Assembly: GCA_017441385.1 (NCBI GenBank)
Contig: JAFRXY010000076.1
Span: 1-43,518 of the forward strand
Direction: 5' to 3'
Source: Clostridia bacterium
Lineage (GTDB): Bacteria; Bacillota; Clostridia; Oscillospirales; Acutalibacteraceae
Length of the DNA: 43,518 nt
Part shown: positions 4,387-34,897 of the stretch, piece by piece
How positions within the stretch are numbered: position 1 is the first letter of the stretch
Layout: each line of letters starts with the position of its first letter
Notes under the pieces: model-generated
The model's database searches: none
Told to the model about the DNA's origin: nothing
The model's input: only the letters and a program-made list of their open reading frames with translations
Made by a program: the position numbers and the translations under genes

Positions 4387-5517
4387 TTGGCAAATTTTAG
4401 CAGTGGCAGCAACAAGAAAGGCGGTCTTTTCGCGGGAGTGCTGGTCGGAATTCTGATGGTCATCATCGGCACCGTTCTGCTCTGGTGGAATGAGGGCAAC
4501 AATGTCCGCAACATCAAGACAACCGACGAGATCGAAAAGAGCGTAGTCGAGATCACTCCGGAAGAAAATCCCGACGAAGTTGCGGGACAGCTTGTCGCGG
4601 TCGGCGGCAAGTTCGTTGTGGAAGATGTGTCGCTTTCCGATAAGACATTCGGAATAAGCGCGCACACCGCCGTGCTCACCCGTGTGGTCGAGGTCTATCA
4701 GTGGGAAGAAGAATCTCATTCCGATGACGACGGCACAACTTATACTTACAAAAAGGTATGGCACGAGGGTTTGATTGATTCATCGAATTTCTCCAGATCC
4801 GGTCACGATAATCCGACGTCCGTTGCTTATGAGAGCGAGTCGGAATATGCCGAGACTGTCACGCTGGGCAATTTCCATCTCAGCAGCGCACAGATTCAGA
4901 AGATGGATGCAGAGAAGTCGCTCAGCGCGGCCGAAGCAAAGAAGATTCCCAAAAAATACAGTGTGGCAGGCAATTATGTCACCAATTCCGCCGATCTCGA
5001 CAGCCCGGAGATAGGCGATGTGAGAATCAGCTGGAAGTACAACGACTGGAAGGAAGTCAGCCTGATCGCGCAGGCGACCGGCACCACCTTCGTCAGCTGG
5101 ACGTCCGCCGTGGGCAAGAAGGTCAACTGGGTTACGGAAGGCACTAAGACTTCCGCCGAAATGATTCAGGATATGCGCACACAGGATAAGATAATGAAGT
5201 GGCTGCTCCGACTGCTCGGGTTCATCCTGATATTCACCGGTTACATGTCTTTCATCAGCCCGCTCACCAAGCTGGTCGGATATATCCCGATTCTCGGCAA
5301 TGTGGTCAACTTCACCTTCGGCCTTATCATTTTGCTGCTTTCGCTGATCCAGTCGTTGCTGGTCATCATCGTCGCGTGGTTCCGCTTCCGCCCGCTGCTG
5401 AGTATCTGTCTGCTGGTAGTGGCTGCGGGCATCGGCGTGCTGATCTATGTGCTGAAAAAGAAGCATCCCACACCGCCCCCCGCACAGCCGCCTGTGCAGC
5501 CCGCGCAGACTGTGTAA
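4387..5517 (+). CDS. TMEM43 (LUMA) family membrane protein
   Basis: A 376-residue protein with the layout of the TMEM43 family. One N-terminal membrane segment (about residues 13-33) runs into LLWWNEGNNVRN, resembling the family's WNEG motif. A large, mostly polar region of about 230 residues follows, rich in Asp, Ser and Lys. At the C-terminus three hydrophobic segments (about 272-358) contain SPLTKLVGYIPILGNVVNF and a conserved AWFRFRPLL-like stretch, ending in a Pro-rich tail. The TTG start at 4387 has AAGAAGG about 8 nt upstream. The function of bacterial members is not established; the human protein is an inner nuclear membrane protein. It stands alone between its own promoter and a terminator. 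Confidence 0.8.
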   Translation: MANFSSGSNKKGGLFAGVLVGILMVIIGTVLLWWNEGNNVRNIKTTDEIEKSVVEITPEENPDEVAGQLVAVGGKFVVEDVSLSDKTFGISAHTAVLTRVVEVYQWEEESHSDDDGTTYTYKKVWHEGLIDSSNFSRSGHDNPTSVAYESESEYAETVTLGNFHLSSAQIQKMDAEKSLSAAEAKKIPKKYSVAGNYVTNSADLDSPEIGDVRISWKYNDWKEVSLIAQATGTTFVSWTSAVGKKVNWVTEGTKTSAEMIQDMRTQDKIMKWLLRLLGFILIFTGYMSFISPLTKLVGYIPILGNVVNFTFGLIILLLSLIQSLLVIIVAWFRFRPLLSICLLVVAAGIGVLIYVLKKKHPTPPPAQPPVQPAQTV

Positions 5518-9026: not shown

Positions 9027-9055
9027 TTGATTTTTTGGTAAAATTAGTTTATAAT
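9027..9055 (+). promoter_or_regulatory. Promoter of the seven-gene lipid operon
   Basis: TTGATT (9027-9032), a 17-bp spacer and TATAAT (9050-9055) lie 68 nt before the first start codon. This is the only clear promoter seen upstream of 9124, and all seven genes below it are tightly packed. Confidence 0.75.
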
Positions 9056-9123: not shown

Positions 9124-9714
9124 GTGCTTACAATTATCCTGATGATGTACGTCACGCTGATTCCGGTCATTCTGGCGGGTGTCGCGAATATGGCGTGGTG
9201 CAAGTCCGGTGTGCTTGACGGCACGAGAAAGCCGATCGACGGCGGGAAAAACTTCATTGACGGCAGGCGGATATTCGGCGACAACAAGACATGGAAGGGC
9301 CTGATCGGTTACGTCCTCTTCAACACCATCTTCTTTGTCCTCTGGGGGTTTCTCTGCAAGGAGGCGTCGTGGGAAAGCCTGCATTTCTTCTATCTCGGTC
9401 ATGACAATACGGTTCCGTTCAATCTTTTGGCCGGTACGCTGCTGGGATTAGGCTATTCGCTCTTTGAACTGCCCAACAGCTTTCTGAAAAGGCGGCTGGG
9501 CATTACCCCGGGGAAGACGCTGAAAGGATTTTCAAAGGTTTTTTTTGTCTTTCTCGATCAGGCGGATTCCATTTTCGGCTGCGCCCTCGTCGTGTGGATG
9601 TTTTATGATCTCGGAATTCTGCTTTACCTGCTGTATGTGCTGGTAGGCGCGGCTACGCACATCCTCTTCAATATGCTTCTCTACTTCGCCGGATTGCGAA
9701 AAAATATGTTCTGA
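9124..9714 (+). CDS. CarS/DUF46-like CDP-lipid synthase
   Basis: A 196-residue polytopic membrane protein related to CDP-archaeol synthase (CarS), a CTP transferase that activates lipid phosphates as CDP-lipids. Family blocks seen are ANMAWCKSG near the N-terminus, FIDGRRIFGDNKTWKGLIGY, then ELPNSFLKRRLGITPGKTL, and FLDQADSIFG. In archaeal CarS the block before SFxKRR reads GDxxK; here it is ELPN, so this is a bacterial variant. The GTG start at 9124 has AAGAAGGA about 11 nt upstream; the ATG at 9114 is out of frame. It is the first gene of the operon. The substrate could be phosphatidate, an ether lipid phosphate or a prenyl lipid; sequence does not decide. Confidence 0.8.
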   Translation: MLTIILMMYVTLIPVILAGVANMAWCKSGVLDGTRKPIDGGKNFIDGRRIFGDNKTWKGLIGYVLFNTIFFVLWGFLCKEASWESLHFFYLGHDNTVPFNLLAGTLLGLGYSLFELPNSFLKRRLGITPGKTLKGFSKVFFVFLDQADSIFGCALVVWMFYDLGILLYLLYVLVGAATHILFNMLLYFAGLRKNMF

Positions 9715-9730
9715 CAGGACGGTGGCGGCC

Positions 9731-12268
9731 ATGATTGCTTATTTGAAAAAATCGGAAATCCATGAGGAAAAACTGGGGAACAAGGGAAAATTCCTGCTTG
9801 AAATGCTGAAAGCCGGATTCCCTGTGCCGGAAGGTTTTATTCTGGACAGCGACGTGTATGACGAATTTGTCCTGCAAAACGGGCTGAAGGAACGTATTCT
9901 TGCTAGGCTCAATGAGCTTGGCAAGGATAACATCGCGGAAACCTCCAAAGAGCTTATCGCCCTGTTTGAAGCTACCGCGCTTTCGGATTCAGTCAGAACC
10001 GAGATGGAAAAGCGCGCCAAAAGCGGCGTTCTGTATGCGGTAAGAAGCAGCGGCATATTGGAAGATATGGCGGAGCATTCCTTCGCCGGACAGTACGACA
10101 CCTTCCTCAACGTGCCGAGGGAAGAGCTCTGCGACCGTGTGATCGACTGCTACCGATCCATGTTCCGCGAGGTGATTCTTTCCTATGTGGTGGACAATCA
10201 GATTCCGGCGGAAGCGCTGGGCATGTCGGTCGTCATTCAGGAGATGGTGGACGCCGATCTGAGCGGTATCTGCTTCACGGTCGATCCCACCACCGGAAAC
10301 GATAAGGAAATGCTGATCGAGGTGTCGGAAGGACTGGGCGAAAACCTCGTCAGCGGCCGGACCGCACCCCAGCAGTATTACTTCAACTGGTACGACGACG
10401 CGGAAGCAGTCAAGGGCGAACCGCCCGCAAGCAGACTCCTGACGGAGGAAAAGCTAACGGAATACGCCCTCTGCTTCAAGCGGATACAGCAGTATTTCGG
10501 CTATCCCTGCGATATCGAGTTCGCCGTGAAGGACGGAAGGCTCTACATATTGCAGTCCAGAGCCATCACCAAGCTGCAATACGGTTTTACCCCCTATGTC
10601 TGGACGACGGCCGATTTCAAGGACGGCGGCGTTTCCGCCACGATCTGCACACCCTACATGTGGTCGCTGTATGAATACATATGGGAATATTCGCTGAGGA
10701 AATTCATCGTCGATTCCGAGATACTGACGGATGAGGAGCTGCCTCCCAAGCTGGGTGAAATGTTTTACGGCAGACCCTACTGGAACCTGAGCGCCGTCAA
10801 AAAGGCGCTGAGTCAGATCATCGGCTATAAGGAGCGGGAATTCGACAACGAATACGGCATCCGGGGCCATTACGAGGGCGACGGGCAGACCACCGGCGTG
10901 TCGGCGAAGATTCTGCTCAGAATGTCCAAGATCATCTATCATCAGACCCGGCTGTTGAACGACCGCCGCAGAAATGCCGAAAGGTACAAGGCGGAATTGC
11001 TGGCCATCTATGACGAATACAAGAAGCAATACGAGGAACGCCGCATCAGCAGCATGACGCAGGCATATTTCGACCTGACACATAATATCTACCTCAGAAG
11101 CGAAACCACCTATTTCTGGCAGATATTCCTGAATACCATTCACCAGTCGCTCTACAAGGACAGTCTGCTGAAATACGTTTCGGAGAGCGAATATCTCTCG
11201 CTGCTGTCGAGTATCGACAATATTTCCCACCTCCTTCCGTTCTATGAAATCTGGGAGCTTACGCGAAATATCCGGTTCGACGTGGAGGCGGCGGGCTTCT
11301 GGCGGGACAACAGCGCGGAGGAAATTGCAAAATCGCTGGACGGCGACGGGTATTTTCTCCCTGAGGCACGCGCGCTGATAGAGAAATACGGCTATCACTC
11401 CGACAAGGAGCTTGATATCACATACCCCTGTTACTATGAGGAACCGGAGACACTCCTGCAGGTCATCAAGGACACCGCGCTGCTGGACGATTCCTTTTCT
11501 CCGGAGAAGGACAAGGAACGCGGCAGGCGAACCAACGAGGAAATCCTCAGCCGCCTTGAAAAGGACGTGTCACGCGGTACATACAAAAAGATCGTCAGGA
11601 AGATCGGCAACATGCGGCGGATGCTCTGGTGGAGAGAGGAATTCCGCGACGTTTCCACCCGATTTTATTACCTGTTGCGCATTTATACCGTCAAGTACGC
11701 CAAATCTCTGCAAAAGAAGGGCATTCTGGAAAGCTGGGAGGACGTGTGGTTCCTGAAAGTCGGCGACCTGTGGAACTATATCGAAAAAAAGCGCACCCCC
11801 GACGAATTCAGAATGGTCAAGGAGCTGCGTGCTACCGTTAAAAAGAACAAGCTCTACTACAACGCCTACCGGAATTACATGAGCGAGAACGAAATCGGCA
11901 GCGATTTTTCGCTTGTCAGCGAGACTCCTTCCGCCGACTCCCTCAAGGGACTGGGCGCCAACAACGGCAGGATGACGGGAACCGCGAGAGTGATCCACGA
12001 CTTCTCCGAGATCGACCGCCTGCGGGAGGGCGATATCCTCGTCACCCGATTCACCGACACCGGCTGGACCCCCAAATTCGCCATCCTGTCGGGCATCGTC
12101 ACGGAATACGGCGGCATTCTCTGCCACGCGGCGATTGTGTCGAGGGAGTACGGTATTCCGGCAATCGTCTGCTGCAAGGACGCGATGAGCCGAATCGCCG
12201 ACGGGCAGACAATTTCCATTGACGGCTCGACCGGCACCGTGACGCTGAACGGAGAGCAGAGCCAATGA
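9731..12268 (+). CDS. Rph/PEP-synthase-like phosphotransferase (ATP-grasp plus swivelling His domain)
   Basis: An 845-residue protein. The N-terminal third is a PPDK-type ATP-binding domain: GNKGKFLLEMLKAGFPVPEG, then YAVRSSGILEDMAEHSFAGQ with R105, and VIQEMVDADLSGICFTVDP. A central region of about 450 residues, predicted mostly helical, has no close family I recognise. The C-terminal His domain carries LCHAAIVSREYGIPAIV with catalytic His at about 799. The protein stops there, with no PEP/pyruvate TIM barrel. That architecture matches rifampicin phosphotransferase-like enzymes, which pass the ATP beta-phosphate via His to a hydroxyl, rather than PEP synthase. ATG 9731 is preferred to GTG 9722 because GGTGG at 9721-9725 and AGGA at 9716-9719 then serve as the ribosome binding site. 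The acceptor is unknown; context suggests a lipid or headgroup alcohol. Confidence 0.82.
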   Translation: MIAYLKKSEIHEEKLGNKGKFLLEMLKAGFPVPEGFILDSDVYDEFVLQNGLKERILARLNELGKDNIAETSKELIALFEATALSDSVRTEMEKRAKSGVLYAVRSSGILEDMAEHSFAGQYDTFLNVPREELCDRVIDCYRSMFREVILSYVVDNQIPAEALGMSVVIQEMVDADLSGICFTVDPTTGNDKEMLIEVSEGLGENLVSGRTAPQQYYFNWYDDAEAVKGEPPASRLLTEEKLTEYALCFKRIQQYFGYPCDIEFAVKDGRLYILQSRAITKLQYGFTPYVWTTADFKDGGVSATICTPYMWSLYEYIWEYSLRKFIVDSEILTDEELPPKLGEMFYGRPYWNLSAVKKALSQIIGYKEREFDNEYGIRGHYEGDGQTTGVSAKILLRMSKIIYHQTRLLNDRRRNAERYKAELLAIYDEYKKQYEERRISSMTQAYFDLTHNIYLRSETTYFWQIFLNTIHQSLYKDSLLKYVSESEYLSLLSSIDNISHLLPFYEIWELTRNIRFDVEAAGFWRDNSAEEIAKSLDGDGYFLPEARALIEKYGYHSDKELDITYPCYYEEPETLLQVIKDTALLDDSFSPEKDKERGRRTNEEILSRLEKDVSRGTYKKIVRKIGNMRRMLWWREEFRDVSTRFYYLLRIYTVKYAKSLQKKGILESWEDVWFLKVGDLWNYIEKKRTPDEFRMVKELRATVKKNKLYYNAYRNYMSENEIGSDFSLVSETPSADSLKGLGANNGRMTGTARVIHDFSEIDRLREGDILVTRFTDTGWTPKFAILSGIVTEYGGILCHAAIVSREYGIPAIVCCKDAMSRIADGQTISIDGSTGTVTLNGEQSQ

Positions 12269-13125
12269 GGATTTATGACAGGCACAAACGGGAATACATC
12301 GAAACCGAGCAGTACGGGCAGGGAAAGCTGCAATTCCTGTACGGAAACCCGATAGGCAGGATTCTGCTCAGGCTCGTGATATCCTCCTTTACCTCAAGGC
12401 TATACGGCTTCTACAACAGCCTGCCGGTTTCGGCGAAAAAGATACCCCCGTTTATTGAGAAATATCAGATATCACTCGATGAATACGAAAAAAGCGAGTT
12501 TCGTTCTTTCAATGAATTTTTCACACGGAAACGCCGACCCGAAGCGATACACATTGACCTTCACCCTAACGCGCTGATTTCGCCCGCCGACTCCAAGCTG
12601 CTGGTCTACAATGTGACCGATGATCTGAAGCTCACGGTCAAGGGCAGTCCCTATACGCTGGAGGAGCTGGTCGGCAAAAAAATAGATGTGTCGGATTATT
12701 CCGGCGGGCTTTGTCTGGTGTTCCGGCTGTGCATGGACGATTACCACCGCTACTGCTTCATCGACAGCGGGAAGGTCGCGGACAGCTTCTTCATCAAGGG
12801 CAGACTGCACACCGTCAGCTCGATTTCCAAGGATTACAAGATATTCAAGGAAAATGCAAGAGCGGTGACGGTCTGCGAGACAGAGCATTTCGGTCGGGTC
12901 ATTCAGATTGAGGTGGGCGCGCTGCTGGTCGGCAGGATTGTCAACCATGAACGCAAAACCTTCCGCAAGGGGGAGGAAAAAGGCTTCTTCGAGCCGGGCG
13001 GCTCGACAATTGTTCTCCTGCTGAAAAAGAATACCGCCGACATCGACGGGGAACTTCTGGAGCAGAGCAGGCAAGGAATCGAAACCGTCGTCAGATACGG
13101 AGAAAGGATCGGTCAGAAATTATGA
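12265..13125 (+). CDS. psd: Phosphatidylserine decarboxylase-like (pyruvoyl) enzyme
   Basis: A 286-residue proenzyme of the PSD family, which decarboxylates phosphatidylserine-type lipids to ethanolamine lipids at the membrane. Seen are FNEFFTRKRRPEA, ISPADSKLLVY, the RLCMDDYHRYCF block with its His, VGALLVGRI, and the self-cleavage motif GGST with the predicted G246-S247 cut that makes the pyruvoyl group. Its start overlaps the previous stop by 4 bp (ATGA), indicating translational coupling. No phosphatidylserine synthase is in the window. Because a CarS-like gene lies in the same operon, an archaetidylserine-like or otherwise modified substrate cannot be excluded. Confidence 0.88.
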   Translation: MRIYDRHKREYIETEQYGQGKLQFLYGNPIGRILLRLVISSFTSRLYGFYNSLPVSAKKIPPFIEKYQISLDEYEKSEFRSFNEFFTRKRRPEAIHIDLHPNALISPADSKLLVYNVTDDLKLTVKGSPYTLEELVGKKIDVSDYSGGLCLVFRLCMDDYHRYCFIDSGKVADSFFIKGRLHTVSSISKDYKIFKENARAVTVCETEHFGRVIQIEVGALLVGRIVNHERKTFRKGEEKGFFEPGGSTIVLLLKKNTADIDGELLEQSRQGIETVVRYGERIGQKL

Positions 13126-14030
13126 TTGCAATGTTAAAGAGATGGCATGTGTACTACAAGGAGAGATACCCCATCATTCCGCGCCTGATTCTGGGTTTGA
13201 TCGTGTTCGGAGAGATACACTTTATTATTCTGCTCAACGCCGGGATCACTGAGTTTCATATCGGCATAGAGGAATTTGTTGGCGCGTTCACGGTTTTTGC
13301 CTTTTTGCTTTGGCTGCGTGACGCGGACGACCTCAAGGATTTTGAAACCGACAAGCGGCTTTTCCCCGACCGGCCGCTTCCCAGCGGCCGGGTCTACAAG
13401 AAGGATCTGATGATAAGCTGTACCATCGTACAGGCGATCACCGTGGTGCTGAATGTCATTTTCATGAACAACCTGATCTACTTTGCGGTGCTCTACGCCT
13501 ACGGCTATCTCATGAGCAAGTGGTTTTTCCAGCGGGCGAAGATTCAGCCCAGCCTGCCGCTGGCGGTTGTCACCCACAACCCAGTGCAGATGATCGTCAA
13601 CCTGTACATCATTTCCTTCACCGTCATCAAATACGACATTCCCGCCTTCACGCTCTACAACGCCATGGCGCTTATGACGCTCTATTTTCCGGCGCTGATC
13701 TGGGAGGTTTCCCGCAAGATCAAAGCGCCCAAGGACGAAAACGACTACACCACCTATTCCAAGCTCTTCGGCTACAAGAAGGCAACCCGCTTTGTCCTGA
13801 TACTGACCATCGCCGATATCATCACCAATTTCATTCTGGTTTTCAATCTCAACAAAATTTCGGTCGCGGTGCTCTTCCTGTTGGTGTCGTGGATGACGTG
13901 GAAATTCATTCAGTTCATCAAAGACCCGGACCGGTTTGTCATTGTGGAAAAGGTGGAGATTTATACCTATCTTCAGGAATCGACCATGCTGCTCACGATC
14001 GTGGCGTTCCTGATATTCGGTAAGATATGA
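13122..14030 (+). CDS. UbiA-family membrane prenyltransferase-like protein
   Basis: A 302-residue polytopic protein with about eight hydrophobic segments. The first Asp-rich signature reads RDADDLKDFETDKRLFPDRP followed by LPSGRV, which matches the UbiA pattern of spaced Asp residues then PDRPxPSG, with Arg in place of the usual Asn at the front. The second signature is weaker: EVSRKIKAPKDENDY before SKLFGYKKA, where DxxGD would be expected. UbiA enzymes attach isoprenyl chains to aromatic or glycerol phosphate acceptors, or form prenyl-phosphate sugars. The start codon overlaps the psd stop (ATGA). The altered second motif leaves the exact chemistry open. Confidence 0.75.
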   Translation: MIAMLKRWHVYYKERYPIIPRLILGLIVFGEIHFIILLNAGITEFHIGIEEFVGAFTVFAFLLWLRDADDLKDFETDKRLFPDRPLPSGRVYKKDLMISCTIVQAITVVLNVIFMNNLIYFAVLYAYGYLMSKWFFQRAKIQPSLPLAVVTHNPVQMIVNLYIISFTVIKYDIPAFTLYNAMALMTLYFPALIWEVSRKIKAPKDENDYTTYSKLFGYKKATRFVLILTIADIITNFILVFNLNKISVAVLFLLVSWMTWKFIQFIKDPDRFVIVEKVEIYTYLQESTMLLTIVAFLIFGKI

Positions 14031-16306
14031 TGACGGGACAGAAAGCCATCCACCTCCAAAAGCTGCGCGAAGCCGGAATTCCTGTGCCGGATTTTTCGGT
14101 GATCCCTCACGAAAACTTCCGCGGCGGACACACTGATCTTTCCGGGCTGCCGGTGCTGCTTGACCATGACTGCGACAGATTCGCCGTGAGAAGCTCCGCT
14201 TCGGCGGAGGACAGCGACTCCGCCAGCTTTGCCGGGCAGTTCAGAACCTTCCTGAATGTTCCCAAAGAGGAAATAGAGAGCAAGGTTCGTCTGTGTTTTG
14301 CGTCGCTTCAATCGGACAACATAAAGCAATACGCTTTGAAAAACGGCTTGAATCCGGACGATCTGAAAATGGACGTGATCGTGCAGCGGATGGTCAACCC
14401 GGAGCTTGCCGGCGTGATTTTCACCTCCAACCCGCAGGGATTGCTGAATGAAACCGTCATCACGGTGGGGAAGGGACTGGGGGAAAACGTCGTTTCGGAA
14501 AAAGCCGAGACAACTTCCTATTACTACAGCGCCACCGACAGGCTTTACTATTACGACGGGAATGAAAATCTCCTCTCCGACGCGCTGGTGGAAGGGCTTA
14601 TCGGCGTGTCCGAAAAAATCAAATCCATTCTCGGGGACTATCTGGACATAGAATTTGCCGTCGAGAAGGGCGAAATATTCATTTTACAGGCGAGAAAAAT
14701 CACGACCCTGTCGGGCGATTCGCCGCTGGTGCTCGACAACAGCAATATCGTGGAGAGCTATCCCGGTCTGTCTCTGCCGCTGACGGTGTCATTCGTGCAT
14801 ACGGTATATTCCGGCGTGTTCAGGAGCTTGTGCAGGAGAATCGTCCGGAATGAAAAGGTGATCGGCCAGAAGCAGGACGTTTACAACAACATGGTGGGCC
14901 ACGTCAACGGCCGGCTCTACTACAAAATCAGCAATTGGTACGCCGTCCTGCGCCTTCTTCCCCTCAGCAAAAAGATCATTCCGGTCTGGCAGGAAATGCT
15001 TGGCGTGAAGGCCAGAAGCTACACAGGGGAGGATGTGAAGGTTCCCTTGCGTGTCAGAGCGATGTCCTACCTGCACTGCGTCACCGAGCTGTTCGGCGCT
15101 CCCAAAAATATGGAAAAGCTGTACAGGGATTTCCGCGTCATCCACGACGGATTTTACGCGAGGTTCAGCGAATCCATGACAAGCGGGGAGCTTCACGGGA
15201 TTTACGACGATATCAGGCAAAAGCTCTTCGGCGTATGGGACGTCACGCTGGTGAACGATATGTACGCCTTTCTTTTCACCGCCCTTCTCAAAAGCCGCCT
15301 GAAAAAGCGGGGCAGAACCGACGATCAGATCAACGCCTTCATCTCCGGCATATCCGATATCGAGAGTATGAAACCCATGAAGGCACTGATTGATATTGCC
15401 TTTCACAGGGACGAAATGTCTGCCGCCGAATATGAAGCGGCGAAGGCGGACTACATCAAGGAATTCGGCGACCGCTCGCTGGAAGAACTCAAACTGGAGA
15501 GCAGAACCTTCCGTACTTCACCGGAGCTGTTTGACGAAAGAATCGAATTCTACCGCGCCGACCGCGAAAAGCTGGCACAGATGTACGCCGACCTGCAACG
15601 CCACGGAACCGCGAAGGAGGAAAAGTACGATTTTATCACGAATTTCCTGCGAAAAAGAGCCTCGCTCGGCATCAGGAACAGAGAAATATCCCGGCTCAAC
15701 CGAAGCCGCGCTTACGGCATCGTCCGGCAGATTTTTCTGACGATCGGCAAGCACGCAGCCGAAGATGGGAGGATAGGGGAGAGGAGAGATATCTTCTATC
15801 TGACGGTGGAGGAAGCTTTTGACATTCCCGCCGACGCAAAAGAGCTGATCGAGCGGCGAAAGGAGCAGTATTCGCTCTTTGCCCGGTTGCCCGCCTATAC
15901 GAGGCTGATTTTTGAAAACGCCGAATTCGACAAGAATCACGCCTGTGTCAATTCCTTCCGGAAGCGCCTTTCCGACAACCGGCTCAGCGGCACGCCCTGT
16001 TCCTTCGGCGTCGCGGAGGGAGAAGCGCGGGTAATCACCGACGTTTCCTCGGTGGGCGACGTCCGGGGAAAAATACTGGTTACCCGCATGACCGACCCCG
16101 GCTGGGTATTCCTGCTGGCGGCTGCCAAGGGCGTGATCTCGGAAAAAGGCTCCCTGCTTTCCCACACGGCAATTATTTCCCGTGAGCTGAAAATTCCTTC
16201 GATCGTGGGAGTGGAAGGGCTGCTGGACACGGTGCGCGACGGCGACAGAATCCGCATGGACGGCAGAACCGGCGAAATAATCATCCTTCGTGAGGAGAAA
16301 GAGTGA
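14027..16306 (+). CDS. Second Rph/PEP-synthase-like phosphotransferase
   Basis: A 759-residue homologue of the 9731 gene product. It keeps the N-terminal ATP-binding domain (GQKAIHLQKLREAGIPVPDF, FAVRSSASAEDSDSASFAGQ, VIVQRMVNPELAGVIFTSNP, DIEFAVEKGEIFILQARKI), a long divergent middle, and the C-terminal His domain KGSLLSHTAIISRELKIPS with His at about 713. It also lacks a PEP-binding barrel. The middle region differs strongly from the first copy, so the two probably act on different hydroxyl acceptors or in sequential steps. The start overlaps the UbiA stop (ATGATG). Confidence 0.82.
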   Translation: MMTGQKAIHLQKLREAGIPVPDFSVIPHENFRGGHTDLSGLPVLLDHDCDRFAVRSSASAEDSDSASFAGQFRTFLNVPKEEIESKVRLCFASLQSDNIKQYALKNGLNPDDLKMDVIVQRMVNPELAGVIFTSNPQGLLNETVITVGKGLGENVVSEKAETTSYYYSATDRLYYYDGNENLLSDALVEGLIGVSEKIKSILGDYLDIEFAVEKGEIFILQARKITTLSGDSPLVLDNSNIVESYPGLSLPLTVSFVHTVYSGVFRSLCRRIVRNEKVIGQKQDVYNNMVGHVNGRLYYKISNWYAVLRLLPLSKKIIPVWQEMLGVKARSYTGEDVKVPLRVRAMSYLHCVTELFGAPKNMEKLYRDFRVIHDGFYARFSESMTSGELHGIYDDIRQKLFGVWDVTLVNDMYAFLFTALLKSRLKKRGRTDDQINAFISGISDIESMKPMKALIDIAFHRDEMSAAEYEAAKADYIKEFGDRSLEELKLESRTFRTSPELFDERIEFYRADREKLAQMYADLQRHGTAKEEKYDFITNFLRKRASLGIRNREISRLNRSRAYGIVRQIFLTIGKHAAEDGRIGERRDIFYLTVEEAFDIPADAKELIERRKEQYSLFARLPAYTRLIFENAEFDKNHACVNSFRKRLSDNRLSGTPCSFGVAEGEARVITDVSSVGDVRGKILVTRMTDPGWVFLLAAAKGVISEKGSLLSHTAIISRELKIPSIVGVEGLLDTVRDGDRIRMDGRTGEIIILREEKE

Positions 16307-17380
16307 ATGGAATTAATCAGATTTGACAAAGAGAAACAATATATCCGTGATTTTATAGGGATTGCCAAGAAACTGTACTCGGCAAAGGACAATATGGAAG
16401 ACCCCGATTCGATGAAGAAATTCCTTACCGGCACCCATGCCCTTTCCAAATATTTTGCGCTGGACAAATTTCTCGTCTATGACAGGGGCAAGCCGGTGGG
16501 GCGGTTCGCCATTACCACCTATCCCGACGACGACACGGCGTATTTCGGCTTCTACGAATGTGTGGACGACGACAGCGCGGCGAATTTTCTGTTTGATGAA
16601 GCTGTCGCGTTCTGTCGGGAAAAGGGATACGCCAGAATTGAGGGGCCGGTGGACGGTTCCTTCTGGCAGAAGTACCGGCTCAAGATCAATCTTTTCGACC
16701 GGCAGCCCTATACAGGAGAACCCTACAACAAGCCCTATTATTTCAGGCAGTTCACCGACAACGGCTTTACCGTTTCGGCGCATTATACTTCCAACCTGTT
16801 CCATCCCATTGACGAGAGCTACCGGAATGAAAAATTCGAGCAGCGCTTTCAGCAATTCCTCGATAACGGCTACCGCATTGAAAGCCCTACGGAAGAGAAT
16901 TACGACGCGATCATGGGCGATGTGTATGACATGATCATGGAACTGTACAGCGACTTCCCGATCTTCAAGGCGCTGTCCCGTGAGGATTTCATGGAAATAT
17001 ACGGCAGCTTCAGGATGATCATGAATATGAGCATGACCAAGATCGCGTTTTATCAGGATAAGGCGGTCGGCTTCTACATCAGTATTCCCGACTATGCCAA
17101 CAGGGTCTATCATGTCAGCCTTCTGAGCCTTCCCATGCTCCTGAAAATCAAAAAATCTCCGGAGCGGTATGTTATGCTTTACATGGGCGTCCGCCCGGAG
17201 CACAGGGGACTCGGCAAGGCGCTTGTTTACAGCATCATGAAGGAGCTTGCTCAGAACAGGCTGCCCAGTATCGGAGCGCTTGTCCGCGACGGCAAGCCAA
17301 ATCAGACTTACCTTCCCGACGATGTGACCGATATTTACGAATATGTGCTGCTGGAACGCACGATAGCACAAGGAGACTGA
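16307..17380 (+). CDS. GNAT-like acetyltransferase family protein
   Basis: A 357-residue protein with two apparent halves. The N-terminal half holds IEGPVDGSFWQKYRLKINLF and PYNKPYYFRQFTDNGF, a pattern of some GNAT-related proteins of the YghO kind. The C-terminal half has YVMLYMGVRPEHRGLGKALV, which matches the acetyl-CoA-binding R/Q-x-x-G-x-G/A loop. It starts one base after the previous stop, with GAGGAG 9 nt upstream inside the preceding gene. The acyl donor and acceptor are unknown; in this operon it could acylate a headgroup amine or receive an acyl group from the ligase that follows. Confidence 0.7.
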   Translation: MELIRFDKEKQYIRDFIGIAKKLYSAKDNMEDPDSMKKFLTGTHALSKYFALDKFLVYDRGKPVGRFAITTYPDDDTAYFGFYECVDDDSAANFLFDEAVAFCREKGYARIEGPVDGSFWQKYRLKINLFDRQPYTGEPYNKPYYFRQFTDNGFTVSAHYTSNLFHPIDESYRNEKFEQRFQQFLDNGYRIESPTEENYDAIMGDVYDMIMELYSDFPIFKALSREDFMEIYGSFRMIMNMSMTKIAFYQDKAVGFYISIPDYANRVYHVSLLSLPMLLKIKKSPERYVMLYMGVRPEHRGLGKALVYSIMKELAQNRLPSIGALVRDGKPNQTYLPDDVTDIYEYVLLERTIAQGD

Positions 17381-17382
17381 AA

Positions 17383-18813
17383 ATGAACACGCTTGACACC
17401 TTTCTGAAAAGCGCCTACGCAAAATGGCGCGACAACGATTATCTGCATCAGTCCGGCAGGACGGAGACTTACGGCAGCTTCACCGAAAAGGTGAATTACT
17501 TTGCGGCTTGCCTCCGTGAGAAGGGCTTTGCCGGAAAGAATATCGGCATATTCAGCCCGAACAGCATTGAATGGATGATTGCCGACATCGCCATCATGAA
17601 TTATGTCGGCGTGAGCGTCGGACTTTCCAAGGACTGGAAGTATGACGACCTGCTCTACGCCCTCAAAAAGTGCGATATTGCCTGCCTGCTCTATTCAGAG
17701 GTGAATGCTGAAATGATCGGGGCGGCGAAGTCGGTTTTTCCGGAGGTTGCTTTTATCTGTGTCGAGAAGGAATTTGAAAGCTGCGTTGCGGAGGGAAAGG
17801 TGCTGTGCGCGGAGCTTTTCACCCTGCCTACCAAGACCGACGGCGAAGCAGCCAAAATCGTCATGACAAGCGGTTCTACCTCTTTTCCCAAGGCCGTGCT
17901 GCTCTCCATCAAAAATATCTTTTCCGGTTGGGAGTCTCTTCAAAGAAGAATCCATGTCACTGAGGAGGATATCTGCTATCTCTTCCTGCCGCTGAGCCAC
18001 ACCTACGGTTCTATTTACAACTTTATCTATTCGCTTGTCTTCGGATTCAGGATATACCTTGCTGAGAACATCAAAACAATGGCGCAGGAGATGGGCGCAA
18101 TCCGGCCGACGCTTTTCTCTGCCGTGCCGATTGTCTTCATCAAGTTTCTGGAAGGCGCCAAGCAGTACGGCATTCCGGTCAAGATGCTGCTGGGCGGCCG
18201 GATCAAGTACCTGTTCTGCGGCGGCGCTGACCTCACGCTGGAACTGAGAAACAGCTACATTCAGCAGGGACTCTACCTGATGAACGCCTACGCCCTTTCC
18301 GAAACAGCTTCCGCCTTCAGTCTGGACTATCCGGGTGACAGCGTGCTGGACAGCGTGGGCACCCTTTTTGAAAATCTTGACGCAAAGGTCATTGCCCCCG
18401 GCGAAGACGGATACGGAGAGCTTGCGGTCAAAGGGGACAATGTCTTCATCGGCTACTACAACGACGAGGAAGCCACAAGGGCCGTGTTCGACAGCGAAGG
18501 ATATTTCCGTACGGGAGACATCGGCTGCATCAAAGACAAACATGTCTACGTCAGGGGCAGAAAGGACACCATGATCGTCCTTCCCAACGGTGAAAACGTA
18601 TCCTCCAACGCCCTTGTCCAAAAGATCAAGCAGACGGAACCTTCCATTCGCTCGGTCAAGCTGTATGTCCGGGACAACGCCCTGACGGCGGATATCTACA
18701 GCTCCGCGCAGTTGGATTGGGACAGCCTTATCGAAGCGCTCAATAACACCTTGCCGAAGTATGAGAGAATCAGGAAGTACAACATCGTCGATCCTTCGCT
18801 TCTCCTGAAATAA
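17383..18813 (+). CDS. AMP-forming acyl ligase (acyl-CoA synthetase family)
   Basis: A 476-residue adenylate-forming enzyme that activates a carboxylic acid as acyl-AMP. Core motifs: MTSGSTSFPKAVLLS (ATP loop, about residues 161-175), LPLSHTYGSIYN, FCGGADLT, YALSETASAF, GYFRTGDIG and GRKDTMIVLPNGENVSS. The C-terminal domain is short and the usual PKTxxGKIxR lysine motif is not evident: the chain ends LPKYERIRKYNIVDPSLLLK. This may mean thioester formation is altered or that adenylation alone is done. It closes the seven-gene operon; AAGGAG lies 7 nt before the ATG. The acid used is not predictable from sequence. Confidence 0.85.
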   Translation: MNTLDTFLKSAYAKWRDNDYLHQSGRTETYGSFTEKVNYFAACLREKGFAGKNIGIFSPNSIEWMIADIAIMNYVGVSVGLSKDWKYDDLLYALKKCDIACLLYSEVNAEMIGAAKSVFPEVAFICVEKEFESCVAEGKVLCAELFTLPTKTDGEAAKIVMTSGSTSFPKAVLLSIKNIFSGWESLQRRIHVTEEDICYLFLPLSHTYGSIYNFIYSLVFGFRIYLAENIKTMAQEMGAIRPTLFSAVPIVFIKFLEGAKQYGIPVKMLLGGRIKYLFCGGADLTLELRNSYIQQGLYLMNAYALSETASAFSLDYPGDSVLDSVGTLFENLDAKVIAPGEDGYGELAVKGDNVFIGYYNDEEATRAVFDSEGYFRTGDIGCIKDKHVYVRGRKDTMIVLPNGENVSSNALVQKIKQTEPSIRSVKLYVRDNALTADIYSSAQLDWDSLIEALNNTLPKYERIRKYNIVDPSLLLK

Positions 18814-18881
18814 CATAGTAGTTGATTATCATTTTGCAAGATGCAAATGGTACTTATTCATATTTTGCAAATTGAATGCAG

Positions 18882-18920
18882 AAAATGACTGTAAAAACGT
18901 GTTTTTTTGCAGTCGTTTTT
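18882..18920 (+). terminator. Intrinsic terminator of the seven-gene operon
   Basis: AAAATGACTG and CAGTCGTTTT enclose an inner A5/T6 pairing around CGTG, with the right arm ending in TTTTT. The stem is AT-rich but long. Confidence 0.65.
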
Positions 18921-27139: not shown

Positions 27140-28630
27140 ATGAATAATTCCAGCAATGTGCAAGGTGAAGTACAAAAGGACGAGGTGTTCGATATACTGT
27201 CGTTTCTTCAGTTTTTGCTGACAAAAATGAAATTGCTCGTTATCGGACTCATAGCGGGAGCCTTGGTGGGCTGGGCGTTGTCCATGTTTGTGATTCCCCC
27301 GAAGTATTCGTCCTATGTTGACCTGTATATAACCAACAGCAAAAAAACAGACTCCGATTCGGTTGGATACAACGATATTACGGCTGCCCAGAAGCTCGCA
27401 AGCACATATGTGGTCATTCTCCAATCGAATACTGTCACTAAGGAAGTTCTGAAGAACGTGGATTCGGAAATGACAATCGATCAGTTGCTTTCTGTGACAT
27501 CATTTACATCTGTACAGAATACCGAAGTGCTTCGTATCACTGTAGAAACGAATGACCCGCAGCTGACGAAAGAGATTTGTGATTCATATATGAATACCGC
27601 TCAGAATGCGCTTGACTCGATTGTCGGAGCCGGTTCTGTCAAGGTAATCAGCAAACCCAAGCTTCCTGAAAGTCCAAGTTCTCCCAGTATTAGGAAATAT
27701 ACCGCAATCGGCGGCTTTTTGGGTCTTGCCCTCATGATCGGTATTGCTTTTCTCAGTATGACGCTGAATCGCCCGATAAGCGACGATAAATCGCTCAGTG
27801 AGCGCTACTCAATCCCCGTTCTCGGCAAAGTGCCTGATTTCTTCCAGTTTTCCAAGGCGCTTAATATCTCCAAACAAGACATAAAGAAAAATCAGAAGCT
27901 CAAGGCAAAAAATCCAGATAACGAAAAAATCATTACATCTGCCACAATTCTGAACGATAAAACACCCTTCCCGATCAAGGAGGCTTATAACGGTATTCGT
28001 TCCAATATTCTGTTTTCACTGGCCAGTATGAAAAACGGCGTGATTATTGTAACCAGTCCCAATGCAAATGACCTTAAAACGACCACATCCATCAATCTTG
28101 CCATATCTATGGCCAATATCGGCGCCAAAGTGCTGCTGATTGACTGCGATCTGAGAAACGCCTCCATCTACAGGCAGTTTAAGCAGTCTAATCAGAAGGG
28201 GCTTTCCCGCGTTATCACGGGTTTTGAAAGTTTTGAGGATTCCGTGGTTAAGGATGTTGCGCCGGGAGTCGATTTTCTCGCGGCAGGTCCGCTGACGCCA
28301 CGGCCCTCCGAGCTGCTCGGTTCGAGCGGTATGACGGATTTCCTGAAACGGCAGGCGTACTTTTATGATTTCGTCATTCTCGACACATCGCCTATCAACA
28401 CCGTTTCCGATTCACTTTCCATGATCTCTGTTGCGGCCGGAATGATTTTGGTTGCAAGGCAGAATAAGACGACTTTCAACGACATTGATAAGGCAATCAA
28501 TTCCATTAAAATGGCTAACGGTCAGATAATCGGCTTTATATTGACCGATGTGGATGCATCAGGCGGCGGCTATGGTTACGGAAAGTACGGTTATGGTTAC
28601 GGTTACGGCGAAAGCAGAAAAACAAAGTAA
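27140..28630 (+). CDS. Wzz/BY-kinase-like fusion protein A (polysaccharide co-polymerase), degenerate P-loop
   Basis: A 496-residue protein that joins a Wzz/CpsC-type chain-length domain to a CpsD/CapB-type tyrosine kinase domain. Membrane segments are at about residues 33-52 and 187-207, bracketing an extracytoplasmic domain with YVDLYITNSKKTDSDS. The cytoplasmic half has Walker A' LLIDCDLRNASIYRQF and Walker B FVILDTSPINTVSDS. Walker A reads TSPNANDLKTTTSINLA: Lys313 and Thr314 remain but the loop glycines of PGxGKS are gone. The tail is tyrosine-rich (YGYGKYGYGYGYG), the usual autophosphorylation cluster. Fusion in one chain is like proteobacterial Wzc, whereas many Firmicutes split the two parts. 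It forms an operon with the next gene. Activity as a kinase is uncertain. Confidence 0.88.
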   Translation: MNNSSNVQGEVQKDEVFDILSFLQFLLTKMKLLVIGLIAGALVGWALSMFVIPPKYSSYVDLYITNSKKTDSDSVGYNDITAAQKLASTYVVILQSNTVTKEVLKNVDSEMTIDQLLSVTSFTSVQNTEVLRITVETNDPQLTKEICDSYMNTAQNALDSIVGAGSVKVISKPKLPESPSSPSIRKYTAIGGFLGLALMIGIAFLSMTLNRPISDDKSLSERYSIPVLGKVPDFFQFSKALNISKQDIKKNQKLKAKNPDNEKIITSATILNDKTPFPIKEAYNGIRSNILFSLASMKNGVIIVTSPNANDLKTTTSINLAISMANIGAKVLLIDCDLRNASIYRQFKQSNQKGLSRVITGFESFEDSVVKDVAPGVDFLAAGPLTPRPSELLGSSGMTDFLKRQAYFYDFVILDTSPINTVSDSLSMISVAAGMILVARQNKTTFNDIDKAINSIKMANGQIIGFILTDVDASGGGYGYGKYGYGYGYGESRKTK

Positions 28631-28647
28631 AAAGAGGATGAGGTTTT

Positions 28648-30117
28648 TTGAGCAAAGAAAACAAGAATGATATAAAAATGAGTTCCGTCTATCTGGATGC
28701 TTTTCGCAAAAGAAAAAACGAGCAGCTCGCATCGGAAATCGATTTATCCGAACCCCATGGCGTAAAAAAAGTCAACCAGTCGGCGAATTCCGTTTTTCTG
28801 GAGTCATTTAGAAAGAAAAAAAACAAGTTCCTTGCAGCTGAACTGAATATTCAGGATGCTCCGACAGCAGCTTCAGAAGACACCCCATCCGCTCACTCTG
28901 AGCAAAAGGCTGATTCCCCGCAGCCCGCTCCCGAAGAAAGGTCATCGGATAAGAAAACCGTTCCGGAAGTTGCGGAAACCGAGAAACCGGATGATGCCGG
29001 AACTTCCGAAAAAAAGGCGAAAACCCGGAGCAGCCGTTTCAAAAGATTGCCACGGAACAGCGTGGCTGACGGAAATGAAAGCCAAGCAGAGGGGAATTCT
29101 CCCGAAGCAACCGGCCTTGCTGTAGATGAAGCCGCTGCCGCGGCGGCAACCGCCATTGCTGCTACGCCCGATAAAACCGCAGATCCGGCGGATTCTACCT
29201 CAACGACCGATACCGATTCCGAACAAACCGAAGCAAAGACTCCTTCCGATTCGGAACAGCCGGAAGAAAAGTCCGATACTGAATCCGAACAGCCGGAAGA
29301 AAAGTCCGATACTGAATCCGAACAGCCGGAAGAAAAGTCCGATACTGAATCCGAACAGCCGGAAGAGAAGACTGACACAGAATCAGAACAGCCGGAAGAG
29401 AAGACTGACACAGAATCAGATCAGCCGGAAGAGAAGACTGATGCCGACACGGAACAGCCGGAAGAGAAGACCGATGCTGAATCAGATCAGCTGGAAGAAA
29501 AGGCTGATACCGACACGGAACAGCCGGAAGAAAAGGAAGATTCCGAATCCGCTCAAGCAGATTCCAAGACCGATACCGGCTCAGCAGAATCAATTAAAAA
29601 GACATCCGATAAACGCAAAGCGCAAATTGCTGTCCTGATCAGTCTTTCCATCATCATCATGTGCGAATTTGTGCTGGTTTTCAAATTAGCCAAGGCTTCT
29701 TTGGGCTCTGACAAAGAAAGCATATCGTATTCTTCTCAGGGCGAAACAAGCCAATCGGATTTACAGATCACGCAGCCTTCCGGTGAGAGCACCACTGTAG
29801 CATCTTCCTCTACGACTGATACAACAGCCTCCGAACCCACTACCACCACTGCTGTTGAAACGACAACCACTACCGCTGCCATCTATTACGCGCCCCTTTC
29901 GCCGGGGCAGCAAAGCGATGATGTCATGAAAATGCAGAAGCGTCTGGCAGAGCTTGGATATATCACTAAAAAAAGCTGTACCGGTTTTTACGGGGAATAT
30001 ACGGTTAAAATGATTAAAATGTTCCAGGAGAAAGCCGGGCTTAGCAAAACGGGAATCGCCGATTCAGAGACACTCGCCAGATTGTATGCTGATGACGCAC
30101 CGGACTGTTTTCATTAA
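28648..30117 (+). CDS. Membrane protein A with duplicated N-terminal FRKRK motif, acidic repeats and peptidoglycan-binding domain
   Basis: A 489-residue protein of an arrangement I do not know by name. Two copies of a basic motif lie at about residues 13-36 (SVYLDAFRKRKNEQLASEI) and 48-70 (SVFLESFRKKKNKFLAAEL). An acidic region follows with tandem 11-residue repeats SEQPEEKSDTE (about 202-300). One membrane segment is at about 324-350 (IAVLISLSIIIMCEFVLVF), then a Ser/Thr-rich linker, and a C-terminal PG_binding_1 domain (SPGQQSDDVMKMQKRLAELG ... TGIADSETLARLY). Predicted topology has the FRKRK motifs and repeats in the cytoplasm, the PG-binding domain outside. TTG start at 28648 after GAGGATGAGG, 17 bp behind the kinase-like gene. 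Confidence 0.85.
   Translation: MSKENKNDIKMSSVYLDAFRKRKNEQLASEIDLSEPHGVKKVNQSANSVFLESFRKKKNKFLAAELNIQDAPTAASEDTPSAHSEQKADSPQPAPEERSSDKKTVPEVAETEKPDDAGTSEKKAKTRSSRFKRLPRNSVADGNESQAEGNSPEATGLAVDEAAAAAATAIAATPDKTADPADSTSTTDTDSEQTEAKTPSDSEQPEEKSDTESEQPEEKSDTESEQPEEKSDTESEQPEEKTDTESEQPEEKTDTESDQPEEKTDADTEQPEEKTDAESDQLEEKADTDTEQPEEKEDSESAQADSKTDTGSAESIKKTSDKRKAQIAVLISLSIIIMCEFVLVFKLAKASLGSDKESISYSSQGETSQSDLQITQPSGESTTVASSSTTDTTASEPTTTTAVETTTTTAAIYYAPLSPGQQSDDVMKMQKRLAELGYITKKSCTGFYGEYTVKMIKMFQEKAGLSKTGIADSETLARLYADDAPDCFH
29251..29580 (+). repeat. In-frame 33-bp tandem repeat, about ten units
   Basis: Units start at 29251 and repeat every 33 bp. Two units (29284-29316 and 29317-29349) are identical by eye and later ones diverge gradually; the tenth is degenerate. 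Each encodes an 11-residue acidic unit like SEQPEEKSDTE. Because 33 is a multiple of three, gain or loss of a unit would change length without a frameshift. The paralogue at 34898 lacks this tract. Confidence 0.9.
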
Positions 30118-33388: not shown

Positions 33389-34885
33389 ATGACTACGCAA
33401 AACAATGTAACTACCGGAGCTCAGCAGGAAGAAGAATTTGACGTCTTGAAATTTCTCTTGTTCTTGCAGAAGCGTTTGAAGCTTCTGCTGCTGGGATTGA
33501 TTTTAGGAGCTTTGGCAGGCTGGGCTTTGTCCTCTTTTGTGATTCATCCCAAATATGCCTCCTTTGTCGACCTCTATATTACCAACAGTAAAAAAACAAA
33601 TACAGACTCTGTGGAATACAACGATATTAACGCGGCACAGAAGCTGGTCAATACGTATGTGGTGATTCTTCAATCAAGCCAAGTCACGCAAGATGTTCTT
33701 GATACGCTGGGTTTAGATATGACAAATGAAGAATTGCTATCCATGACTACATTTTCGTCGGTCCAGAATACAGAGGTTTTGCGCATTAATGTAGAAACCA
33801 AAGACCCGCAGCTGACGAAGGATATCTGCGATTCATATATGAAAACCGCTCAAAGCGCCCTTAATTCTGTTGTAGGAGCCGGTTCTGTCAAGGTGATCAG
33901 CGAACCGGAACTGCCGCAAAAGCCCAGTTCTCCGAGTATTCCCAAATTTACGGCAATCGGCGCGCTTCTGGGACTCATGCTGATGGTAGGCGTGTCTTTT
34001 CTCAGCATACGTCTCAATCGTCCGGTCAGTGACGAGAAAATGCTCAGTGAGCGTTATTCCGTACCTGTTCTCGGTTCAGTTCCTGATTTCTTCCAGTTTT
34101 CCAAGGCACTTAAGATTTCCCGGAAAGACGTAAAAAAGAATCAGAAATTAAAAGCCAATAATCCCAACAACGAGAAAATTATCACTCCGGCGACGATACT
34201 GAACGACAATACCCCTTTCCAGATCAGAGAGGCTTATAACGGAATACGATCCAACATTCTGTTCTCTCTGGCAAATATGAATAACGGAATTATTCTCGTT
34301 ACAAGCCCGAACGCAAATGACCTGAAAACAACCACCTCCATTAATCTGGCTATTGCCATGGCTCATATCGGGGCAAGGGTGCTGCTTGTTGACTGTGACC
34401 TCAGAAATCCTTCGATATACAGACAGTTCAAGCTTTCCAATCAAAAGGGTATTTCAAGAATCATTACAGGTTTTGATAAGTTCGATACTTCCGTGTATAA
34501 AGATCTTATGCCCGGTGTGGATTTCCTCTCGGCAGGTCCGGTTACCCCCAGACCGTCTGAACTGCTCGGTTCTAGCAGAATGATCGAATTTCTGAAAAGA
34601 CAGGCGTATTATTATGACTTCATTATTCTTGACACATCTCCTTTGAATTCAGTTTCGGATTCACTTGCATTGACATCGGTGGCAGCGGGAATGATTTTGG
34701 TAGCAAGAGAGAATAAGACGACAGTCAATGATATTGACAAAGCATTGAATTCAATTAAGATGGCCAACGGAAAGATTATGGGCTTTATTCTTACGGATGC
34801 CGACTTATCCGGCGGTTCCTATGGCTACGGCAAGTACGGTTACGGATATGGTTACGGAGAAAGCGGCAAGAAAAAGAAAGGATAG
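33389..34885 (+). CDS. Wzz/BY-kinase-like fusion protein B, degenerate P-loop
   Basis: A 498-residue paralogue of the 27140 product, alike over its full length including FVDLYITNSKKTNTDS and PSSPSIPKFTAIGALLGLML. Domain order is the same: membrane segment, Wzz-type extracellular part, membrane segment, CpsD-type ATPase part, Tyr-rich tail (YGYGKYGYGYGYG). Its Walker A is again TSPNANDLKTTTSINLA with Lys313 at the same residue number. Walker A' is LLVDCDLRNPSIYRQF and Walker B FIILDTSPLNSVSDS. AAGGAG lies 10 nt before the ATG. It is paired with the 34898 anchor gene as module A is with its own. Confidence 0.88.
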   Translation: MTTQNNVTTGAQQEEEFDVLKFLLFLQKRLKLLLLGLILGALAGWALSSFVIHPKYASFVDLYITNSKKTNTDSVEYNDINAAQKLVNTYVVILQSSQVTQDVLDTLGLDMTNEELLSMTTFSSVQNTEVLRINVETKDPQLTKDICDSYMKTAQSALNSVVGAGSVKVISEPELPQKPSSPSIPKFTAIGALLGLMLMVGVSFLSIRLNRPVSDEKMLSERYSVPVLGSVPDFFQFSKALKISRKDVKKNQKLKANNPNNEKIITPATILNDNTPFQIREAYNGIRSNILFSLANMNNGIILVTSPNANDLKTTTSINLAIAMAHIGARVLLVDCDLRNPSIYRQFKLSNQKGISRIITGFDKFDTSVYKDLMPGVDFLSAGPVTPRPSELLGSSRMIEFLKRQAYYYDFIILDTSPLNSVSDSLALTSVAAGMILVARENKTTVNDIDKALNSIKMANGKIMGFILTDADLSGGSYGYGKYGYGYGYGESGKKKKG

Positions 34886-34897
34886 GATGGTGTCATT

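Follow-up and report, generated by a model that had tools for sequence, protein, structure and literature searches.

A conserved operon with CarS-, UbiA- and Rph-related proteins in gut and rumen Clostridia: a candidate pathway for an unusual membrane lipid

Architecture of the operon

A 43,518-nucleotide stretch of DNA from a Clostridia bacterium of the Acutalibacteraceae (GCA_017441385.1, contig JAFRXY010000076.1; referred to below as the window) was analyzed for a group of seven genes that an earlier note, written from the letters alone, had described as a lipid operon. In the draft genome (2.66 Mb, 110 contigs, 98.75 percent complete) the window is contig 36. The description of seven same-direction genes with small overlaps or gaps was confirmed. 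Seven open reading frames (ORFs) on the + strand occupy positions 9124 to 18813, with intergenic gaps of 7, -4, -4, -4, 0 and 2 bases, and the operon is real and tightly packed. The features, with protein lengths in amino acids (aa), are as follows.

9027..9055, +, promoter-like site TTGATT-17-TATAAT, the top of 15 matches in the scanned region (10/12 positions)
9124..9714, +, CarS-like CTP transferase, GTG start, 196 aa (PF01864, 69.1 bits, cut-off 22)
9722..12268, +, PpsA1, ATP-grasp and swivel-His dikinase, Rph relative, 848 aa (PPDK_N and PEP-utilizers)
12265..13125, +, phosphatidylserine decarboxylase (PSD) family, 286 aa (PF02666, 165.7 bits)
13122..14030, +, UbiA-superfamily membrane prenyltransferase, PRK13592 type, 302 aa (NF010118, 423.6 bits, cut-off 443)
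14027..16306, +, PpsA2, second Rph-like dikinase, 759 aa (NF004882, 787.4 bits, cut-off 850)
16307..17380, +, tandem-GNAT acyltransferase, 357 aa (GNAT, 20.3 bits, cut-off 20.7; predicted model)
17383..18813, +, AMP-forming acyl ligase of the acyl-CoA/ACP synthetase type, 476 aa (PF00501, 171 bits)
18881..18920, +, terminator-like stem-loop of 17 pairs followed by a T-rich tail (stem-loop scan)

The family assignments in the earlier note hold for the CarS-like, PSD and AMP-binding proteins on the scores listed, and also for UbiA and GNAT, which fall just under their cut-offs; a predicted model supports the GNAT assignment. Both the promoter-like and the terminator-like site lie where a single transcript would place them, and the 17-pair stem agrees with the operon end (24 terminator-like stems seen against 15.0 +/- 4.4 expected), but the promoter-like site is weak on its own, since shuffled sequence gave a similar number of matches (15 seen against 11.3 +/- 2.9). 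The two sites thus fit a single transcript, though such matches are frequent in shuffled sequence.

Conservation and distribution

Relatives were collected with the UbiA protein as query against genome contigs, which gave 152, of which the best 80 were used. Adding the window and four loci drawn from a genome sample gives 85 loci; these come from two genome collections and may include the same species more than once. Profile searches found the operon families at at least 84 other loci, with identical or similar gene order as far as the contigs reach. The usual order is CarS - PpsA1 - PssA - PSD - UbiA - PpsA2 - GNAT - ligase; variants occur, and many loci are cut by contig ends. For each operon gene dN/dS against two relatives was 0.06-0.20, ratios that are rough because dS was near or above 1 in many pairs. 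Recurrence and dN/dS together put the gene set far beyond chance. The proposal of a dedicated route to an unusual lipid, which the earlier note had made dependent on gene order being kept in relatives, is supported by this conserved set. UbiA is the most conserved family (median pairwise identity 73 percent over the 85 loci). Pairwise distances of the eight families, calculated like the trees from one best piece per locus with members under 85 percent of median length omitted, correlate at 0.67-0.93, a range in which operon linkage is not separable from plain common descent. At three loci (L010, L065 and L071) the order varies, with PssA and PSD at the operon end, and the ORFs interspersed among operon members at L023, L037, L026 and L041 appear incidental.

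Many record titles among the relatives name rumen or intestinal samples, and four relatives carry strain names without a metagenome-assembled genome label and were taken as isolates. Carriers that seem to be in culture are Butyrivibrio sp. XPD2006 (L046), Lachnospiraceae bacteria P6A3 (L028) and AC2028 (L056), and Ruminococcaceae bacterium YRB3002 (L026). The distribution is patchy. A distant UbiA query matched 10 of 391 genomes of the class, namely the source genome, six that scored similarly (G200, G229, G276, G278, G702 and G767) and three of a more distant type (G084, G143 and G744); neighborhoods were inspected for the matches other than that of G702. There was no UbiA match in 8 other genomes of the same family or 9 others of the same order among those listed, the source genome was the sole match in a phylum sample of 398 genomes, and a plasmid search gave no match. 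The UbiA tree, which is unrooted (rooting with distant rows gave branch lengths at the ceiling), mixes Lachnospiraceae with Oscillospiraceae, and this suggests horizontal transfer. A search of the open-access literature, with most subscription journals outside its scope, returned no description of this gene set among the matches listed.

Putative headgroup enzymes and a recurrent eighth gene

The CarS protein scored 80 bits against the NCBIfam equivalog for CDP-bis-geranylgeranylglycerol synthase (NF003114), under the cut-off of 148, while its family profile matched the CDP-archaeol synthase of A. pernix (5guf) at E 3e-9. Its motifs are nearly invariant, with DQ.DS in 74/74 members and PNSF.KRR in 73/74. 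Archaeal CarS is described in excerpts of PMC9385802 as favoring isoprenoid over acyl substrates, with little selectivity for ether versus ester linkage or backbone stereochemistry; a preference for isoprenoids with low selectivity otherwise agrees with a non-standard backbone. The PSD motif, GGST or LGST, is present in 74/74 members, and the protein scored 273.4 bits against the equivalog NF001941 (PRK00723), under the cut-off of 371.

Clustering of the remaining ORFs revealed an eighth gene in most relatives, a single ORF family present at 61 loci. By motif it is a PssA-like CDP-alcohol phosphatidyltransferase; a profile built from six members recovered 64, and the motif was found in all except that of L013. 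Upstream genes were counted where the sequence before UbiA extends for at least 4.8 kb, as it does at 72 loci counting the window, and a PssA-like gene was nearby at 55 of these, usually between PpsA1 and PSD. The source genome encodes four PF01066 proteins, the closest of which to the operon PssA lies on contig 33, outside the operon, and is 45 percent identical over 151 residues to the operon-type protein of L009. Its counterpart at L013 is 90 percent identical and lies about 2.7 kb downstream of the operon. An apparent PssA-PSD fusion at L077 was rejected as an artefact of a run of N.

Kinase, CarS, PssA and PSD together would cover every step of a CDP-alcohol route that ends in an ethanolamine phospholipid. 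Elsewhere the source genome encodes one CdsA-family protein, two more PSDs (44 and 30 percent identical) and another DgkA, so the operon copies look dedicated, and the operon looks dispensable for ordinary phospholipids.

Two dikinases and the DgkA replacement

Both dikinases carry PPDK_N and PEP-utilizers domains above cut-off and are therefore members of the PEPS/PPDK/Rph dikinase superfamily. The label 'Rph-like' is sound as a statement of relatedness, with RPH structures as the best structure matches by sequence for both, but not of membership: against the rifamycin phosphotransferase model NF041857 the two proteins scored 310.9 and 221.4 bits, with a cut-off of 999. A reading as rifamycin resistance genes was rejected on these scores. 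In RPH, R666 and E667 contact the transferred phosphate according to excerpts of PMC4844700. The Arg-Glu pair aligned with these residues of RPH-Lm is invariant in 63/63 PpsA1 and 78/78 PpsA2 proteins, and the swivel His is present in 63/63 and 77/78, respectively, the remaining one being a gap (all as alignment column counts). The middle, substrate-binding part of the dikinases did not align with RPH.

The two dikinases keep different company. At 84/85 loci the family gene that follows UbiA is PpsA2, and at the one miss (L066) the contig ends two bases on. PpsA1 accompanies CarS at 59 of the 72 loci; at 11 a DgkA-type kinase (a small ORF upstream, found with a profile from four members) stands there instead, and no locus has both. 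Another DgkA is encoded elsewhere in the source genome, so this exclusion holds within the operon. The remaining two loci, L087 and L090, have neither kinase and no CarS nearby, and their draft genomes had no CarS match at E 1e-5, while 6/6 others searched alike did. The kinase and CarS are therefore absent together where UbiA, PpsA2, ligase and GNAT remain. On the UbiA tree the 12 DgkA loci group together, which takes one change; on a smaller tree the DgkA group is nested among PpsA1 loci, and two changes are needed, with both loci that lack CarS inside the group. From its company and its conserved residues, PpsA1 is probably a lipid kinase.

UbiA, its prenyl donor and the acyl enzymes

UbiA scored 33.7 bits against PF01040, just under the cut-off of 34.2 (36.4 for the distant relative L109), and matched NF010118 over its full length just short of the cut-off. 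Against the models for digeranylgeranylglyceryl phosphate (DGGGP) synthase, NF009521 and NF009522, it reached only 16.1 and 17.3 bits, with cut-offs of 296 and 353, and a PDB sequence search with the UbiA profile gave 0 matches. The motif D69-x3-D73-x3-D77 is invariant in 22/22 aligned proteins, and its pattern occurs in 81/85. DGGGP synthases carry D-x3-D, Y-x5-K and a third Asp motif according to excerpts of PMC9385802. By eye, the first of these is kept in UbiA and Y127-x5-K133 is present, with the K varying among relatives, but the third is not canonical (KDEND or KDETE). No match to a family with a known unrelated role was found for either CarS or UbiA; such a match is what the earlier note had named as fatal to the pathway idea. 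Excerpts of PMC12419801 mention a different UbiA neighborhood.

Geranylgeranylglyceryl phosphate synthase (GGGPS/PcrB, PF01884) gave 0 matches in the source genome, and the same model found its family in 7 of 14 control genomes (5 over cut-off, four archaea among the 7). The source genome has a single PF00348 prenyl synthase, which by eye lies between xse- and dxs-like genes, and whose motif YSLIHDDLPCMDDDDLRRG we read as the farnesyl diphosphate (FPP) synthase type. With this motif, the source organism is unlikely to make C20 chains, though they may occur in some relatives. Fifteen further cluster-bearing genomes, three of them of the DUF3419 type described below, were searched at E 1e-10: 13 have one PF00348 protein, G767 has two and G229 has none. 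The motif was readable in 12/15 of these proteins, with Tyr or Phe at the FPP position in nine, Ser in two (L132 and L136) and a long-chain-like motif in one (L135, the closed genome G278). Tyr or Phe here is taken as the mark of an FPP synthase, and Ser could, on the same assumption, mean longer chains.

The predicted model of the protein at 16307-17380, aligned with VIA-align to the top Foldseek chains, has two GNAT folds in one chain and supports a tandem GNAT. A PDB sequence search with the GNAT profile gave 0 matches. GNAT is present at 77/85 loci, and seven of the eight misses, all except L088, have less than 4.2 kb of downstream DNA. The ligase was found at 57/85 loci and was not seen in the CarS-type operon of G767 (L122). 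At L022, L026 and L041 an extra acetyltransferase-like gene of about 340-349 aa lies between GNAT and ligase.

Variant clusters with DUF3419

Three distant clusters from two genera (L109, L110 and L121) keep UbiA, a PpsA2-type dikinase, GNAT and AMP-ligase, and carry DUF3419 in place of the kinase, CarS, PssA and PSD. UbiA identity to the window protein is 27 percent in G084 and 29 percent in G143; G744, of the same genus as G143, was reached via G084 at 35 percent. The dikinases scored 515-544 bits with the PpsA2 profile against 227-285 with that of PpsA1, and the operon profiles gave 58-85 bits for GNAT and 26-50 bits for AMP-ligase. DUF3419 (PF11899), which is absent from the window operon, scored 225 and 229.5 bits in L109 and L110 (cut-off 28.2) and was recognized in L121 by BLAST only, at 92 percent to L110. 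We take DUF3419 to be the BtaA family of betaine-lipid synthesis. The clusters read UbiA - Rph-like dikinase - DUF3419 - 440-aa membrane protein - GNAT - AMP-ligase. The added membrane protein, of about 440 aa, is phytol-kinase-like by eye; it had no Pfam match, and a two-row profile gave 0 PDB matches. These clusters look like a second undescribed lipid cluster, with a possible homoserine-type headgroup.

A proposed two-module pathway and its alternatives

The occurrence of UbiA, PpsA2, GNAT and ligase without the other genes, both in the DUF3419 clusters and at L087 and L090, suggests a division of the operon into two modules. Module A (UbiA, PpsA2, AMP-ligase and tandem GNAT) would produce a lipid alcohol, to which UbiA probably adds an isoprenoid chain, and GNAT probably transfers an acyl chain activated by the ligase. 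Module B (PpsA1 or DgkA, CarS, PssA and PSD) would convert this alcohol to a phosphoethanolamine lipid. PpsA1 would phosphorylate the free hydroxyl with ATP, releasing AMP and Pi as in Rph chemistry, CarS would turn the lipid phosphate into a CDP-lipid, the PssA-like enzyme, encoded elsewhere in the source genome, would swap CMP for serine, and PSD would decarboxylate the serine headgroup to ethanolamine. A module A whose alcohol can serve more than one kind of headgroup enzyme would account for DUF3419 in place of module B. We infer every reaction and every substrate of this scheme, and its prenyl and acyl chains. That the operon is a dedicated, conserved lipid pathway appears well supported, and the chemistry of module B is likely; the two-module pathway to an unusual membrane lipid as a whole we consider slightly better than an even proposition. 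A fuller version would make the product a hybrid isoprenoid-acyl lipid, made by a route particular to gut Clostridia. Its isoprenoid chain would be set by UbiA and come either from FPP or from a prenol taken up from outside (phytol, for example) that PpsA2 converts to the diphosphate, with Rph-family dikinases as phosphorylating enzymes and a headgroup of either phosphoethanolamine (CarS-PssA-PSD) or homoserine type (DUF3419). In this detail the proposal is tentative and rather unlikely to be correct throughout.

Several observations weigh against the two-module pathway. It assigns PpsA2 no step. The PssA-like gene of the source genome lies outside the operon and is distant from the operon type at 45 percent identity, PssA and PSD are both absent from four DgkA-type loci (L073, L074, L085 and L091), and one or both are absent at some others, such as L014, L023 and L049. 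The ligase was found at no more than 57/85 loci. The replacement of PpsA1 by DgkA, a single event on the UbiA tree, counts as one observation rather than eleven. In Firmicutes, undecaprenol is a common substrate of DgkA-type enzymes, so a prenol kinase would fit the swap as well. G229 (locus L010; 1.2 Mb, 98 percent complete) has the operon and no PF00348 protein at the threshold used, which makes the prenyl donor uncertain.

A rival reading is prenol salvage. Here an isoprenoid alcohol from outside the cell would be phosphorylated by PpsA1 or DgkA together with PpsA2, which yields the diphosphate that UbiA needs, and CarS, PssA and PSD act on a UbiA product that is already a lipid phosphate. 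Phytol, an example of such an alcohol, is abundant in plant-fed guts. The constant position of PpsA2 next to UbiA, also in the DUF3419 clusters, is that of a supplier of the UbiA substrate; the DUF3419 clusters add the phytol-kinase-like protein, and G229 has UbiA with no trans-prenyl synthase found. Against this, L087 and L090 keep UbiA and PpsA2, have neither PpsA1 nor DgkA within 10-kb flanks and come from genomes where CarS was not found, a pattern in which the first kinase goes with CarS and not with UbiA. The 440-aa protein is without a Pfam or PDB match, and 14/15 cluster-bearing genomes have a prenyl synthase. We regard salvage as unlikely. N-acylation of phosphatidylethanolamine (PE) is an alternative that we judge a little harder to sustain. 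Here module B would make PE on an ordinary or plasmalogen backbone, ligase and GNAT would N-acylate its ethanolamine, and UbiA and PpsA2 would modify something else. GNAT-fold enzymes usually acylate amines, and both ethanolamine and the presumed DUF3419 product have one; yet GNAT and ligase stay with UbiA and PpsA2 at L087 and L090, where CarS, PssA and PSD are not nearby, and ordinary PE would presumably need no separate CarS.

The earlier note had likened three of the proteins to steps of archaeal ether-lipid synthesis. Read literally, as a diether route in which UbiA is the DGGGP synthase, followed by CarS, archaetidylserine synthase and a decarboxylase, this is very unlikely. The CarS, UbiA, PssA and PSD families do correspond to the last four steps to archaetidylethanolamine, and the CarS profile matches the A. 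pernix enzyme, but no GGGPS/PcrB was found in the source genome, its only prenyl synthase is FPP-like, UbiA lies far under the DGGGP-synthase models (17.3 bits against 353) with a third Asp motif that is not canonical, and the kinases, GNAT and ligase are left unexplained. Least probable of all, in our estimation, is a lipid-linked surface molecule, with the prenyl or acyl lipid as the anchor of a polymer made by the polysaccharide-type genes from about 23.7 kb to 38.2 kb. No glycosyltransferase family was matched by any of the seven operon genes in Pfam and NCBIfam scans, and the flanking groups shared among the matches listed held two window ORFs (an ABC ATPase and a PLP enzyme), neither of them polysaccharide genes. 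The earlier note, for its part, had missed the PssA-like eighth gene, the exchange of PpsA1 for DgkA and the DUF3419 variant.

Relation to known systems

The operon resembles the archaeal archaetidylethanolamine pathway in four enzyme families and in CTP activation by a CarS-family protein. It differs in that its genome has an FPP-like prenyl synthase only and no GGGPS that we could find, in a UbiA of another subfamily, and in the addition of two dikinases, an acyl ligase and a tandem GNAT. The bacterial CdsA-PssA-Psd route to phosphatidylethanolamine shares the logic of CDP-lipid formation, serine exchange and decarboxylation, whereas the operon has CarS for CdsA, an adjoining kinase and, linked to these, a module for a non-standard backbone. 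BtaA-type homoserine or betaine lipids, to which the DUF3419 clusters would belong, have the headgroup placed on a neutral lipid alcohol, and the module A genes are common to both cluster types; unlike operons with module B, the DUF3419 clusters are without adjoining CarS, PssA and PSD. Ca. Cloacimonetes of the FCB group are bacteria that likewise carry some of the archaeal lipid genes: excerpts of PMC7852524 report GGGP and DGGGP synthases with CarS not detected, roughly the reverse of the present case, in which operon bearers have CarS and UbiA and a search of the source genome gave no GGGPS. With RPH, as described in excerpts of PMC4844700, the operon dikinases have the domain layout, swivel His and Arg-Glu pair in common; unlike RPH, they score far under the family cut-off, have an unaligned middle part and are set in a lipid operon.

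The operon occurs in dozens of Clostridia from rumen and gut, a few of which appear to be in culture, so that a lipid class of an abundant group may have escaped notice. If the two-module pathway is correct, some of the widespread Rph-like dikinases would have a natural metabolic role as lipid kinases, beyond rifamycin resistance, and a CarS-family enzyme, known from archaeal isoprenoid lipids, would have a function in ordinary bacteria, a point of relevance to the lipid divide. Existing strains would allow a direct test of the pathway by lipid mass spectrometry.

Other genes in the window

Upstream of the operon, a citrate synthase gene adjoins a gene of the isocitrate/isopropylmalate dehydrogenase family (191-2851). 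Positions 4387-5517 (+) encode a bacterial homologue of TMEM43 (PF07787, E 4.9e-62); the family is associated with nuclear envelopes of animals. On one side of it is a chloride-channel-type gene and on the other a gene that by eye encodes a PLP enzyme. Among the polysaccharide-type genes downstream, the first two of which were recognized by eye, are two similar pairs at 27140-30117 and 33389-36037, each consisting of a Wzz/ATPase protein and a protein with a peptidoglycan-binding domain. The pairs flank a PHP-domain gene and two LytR-CpsA-Psr genes and are a duplicated polysaccharide control unit.

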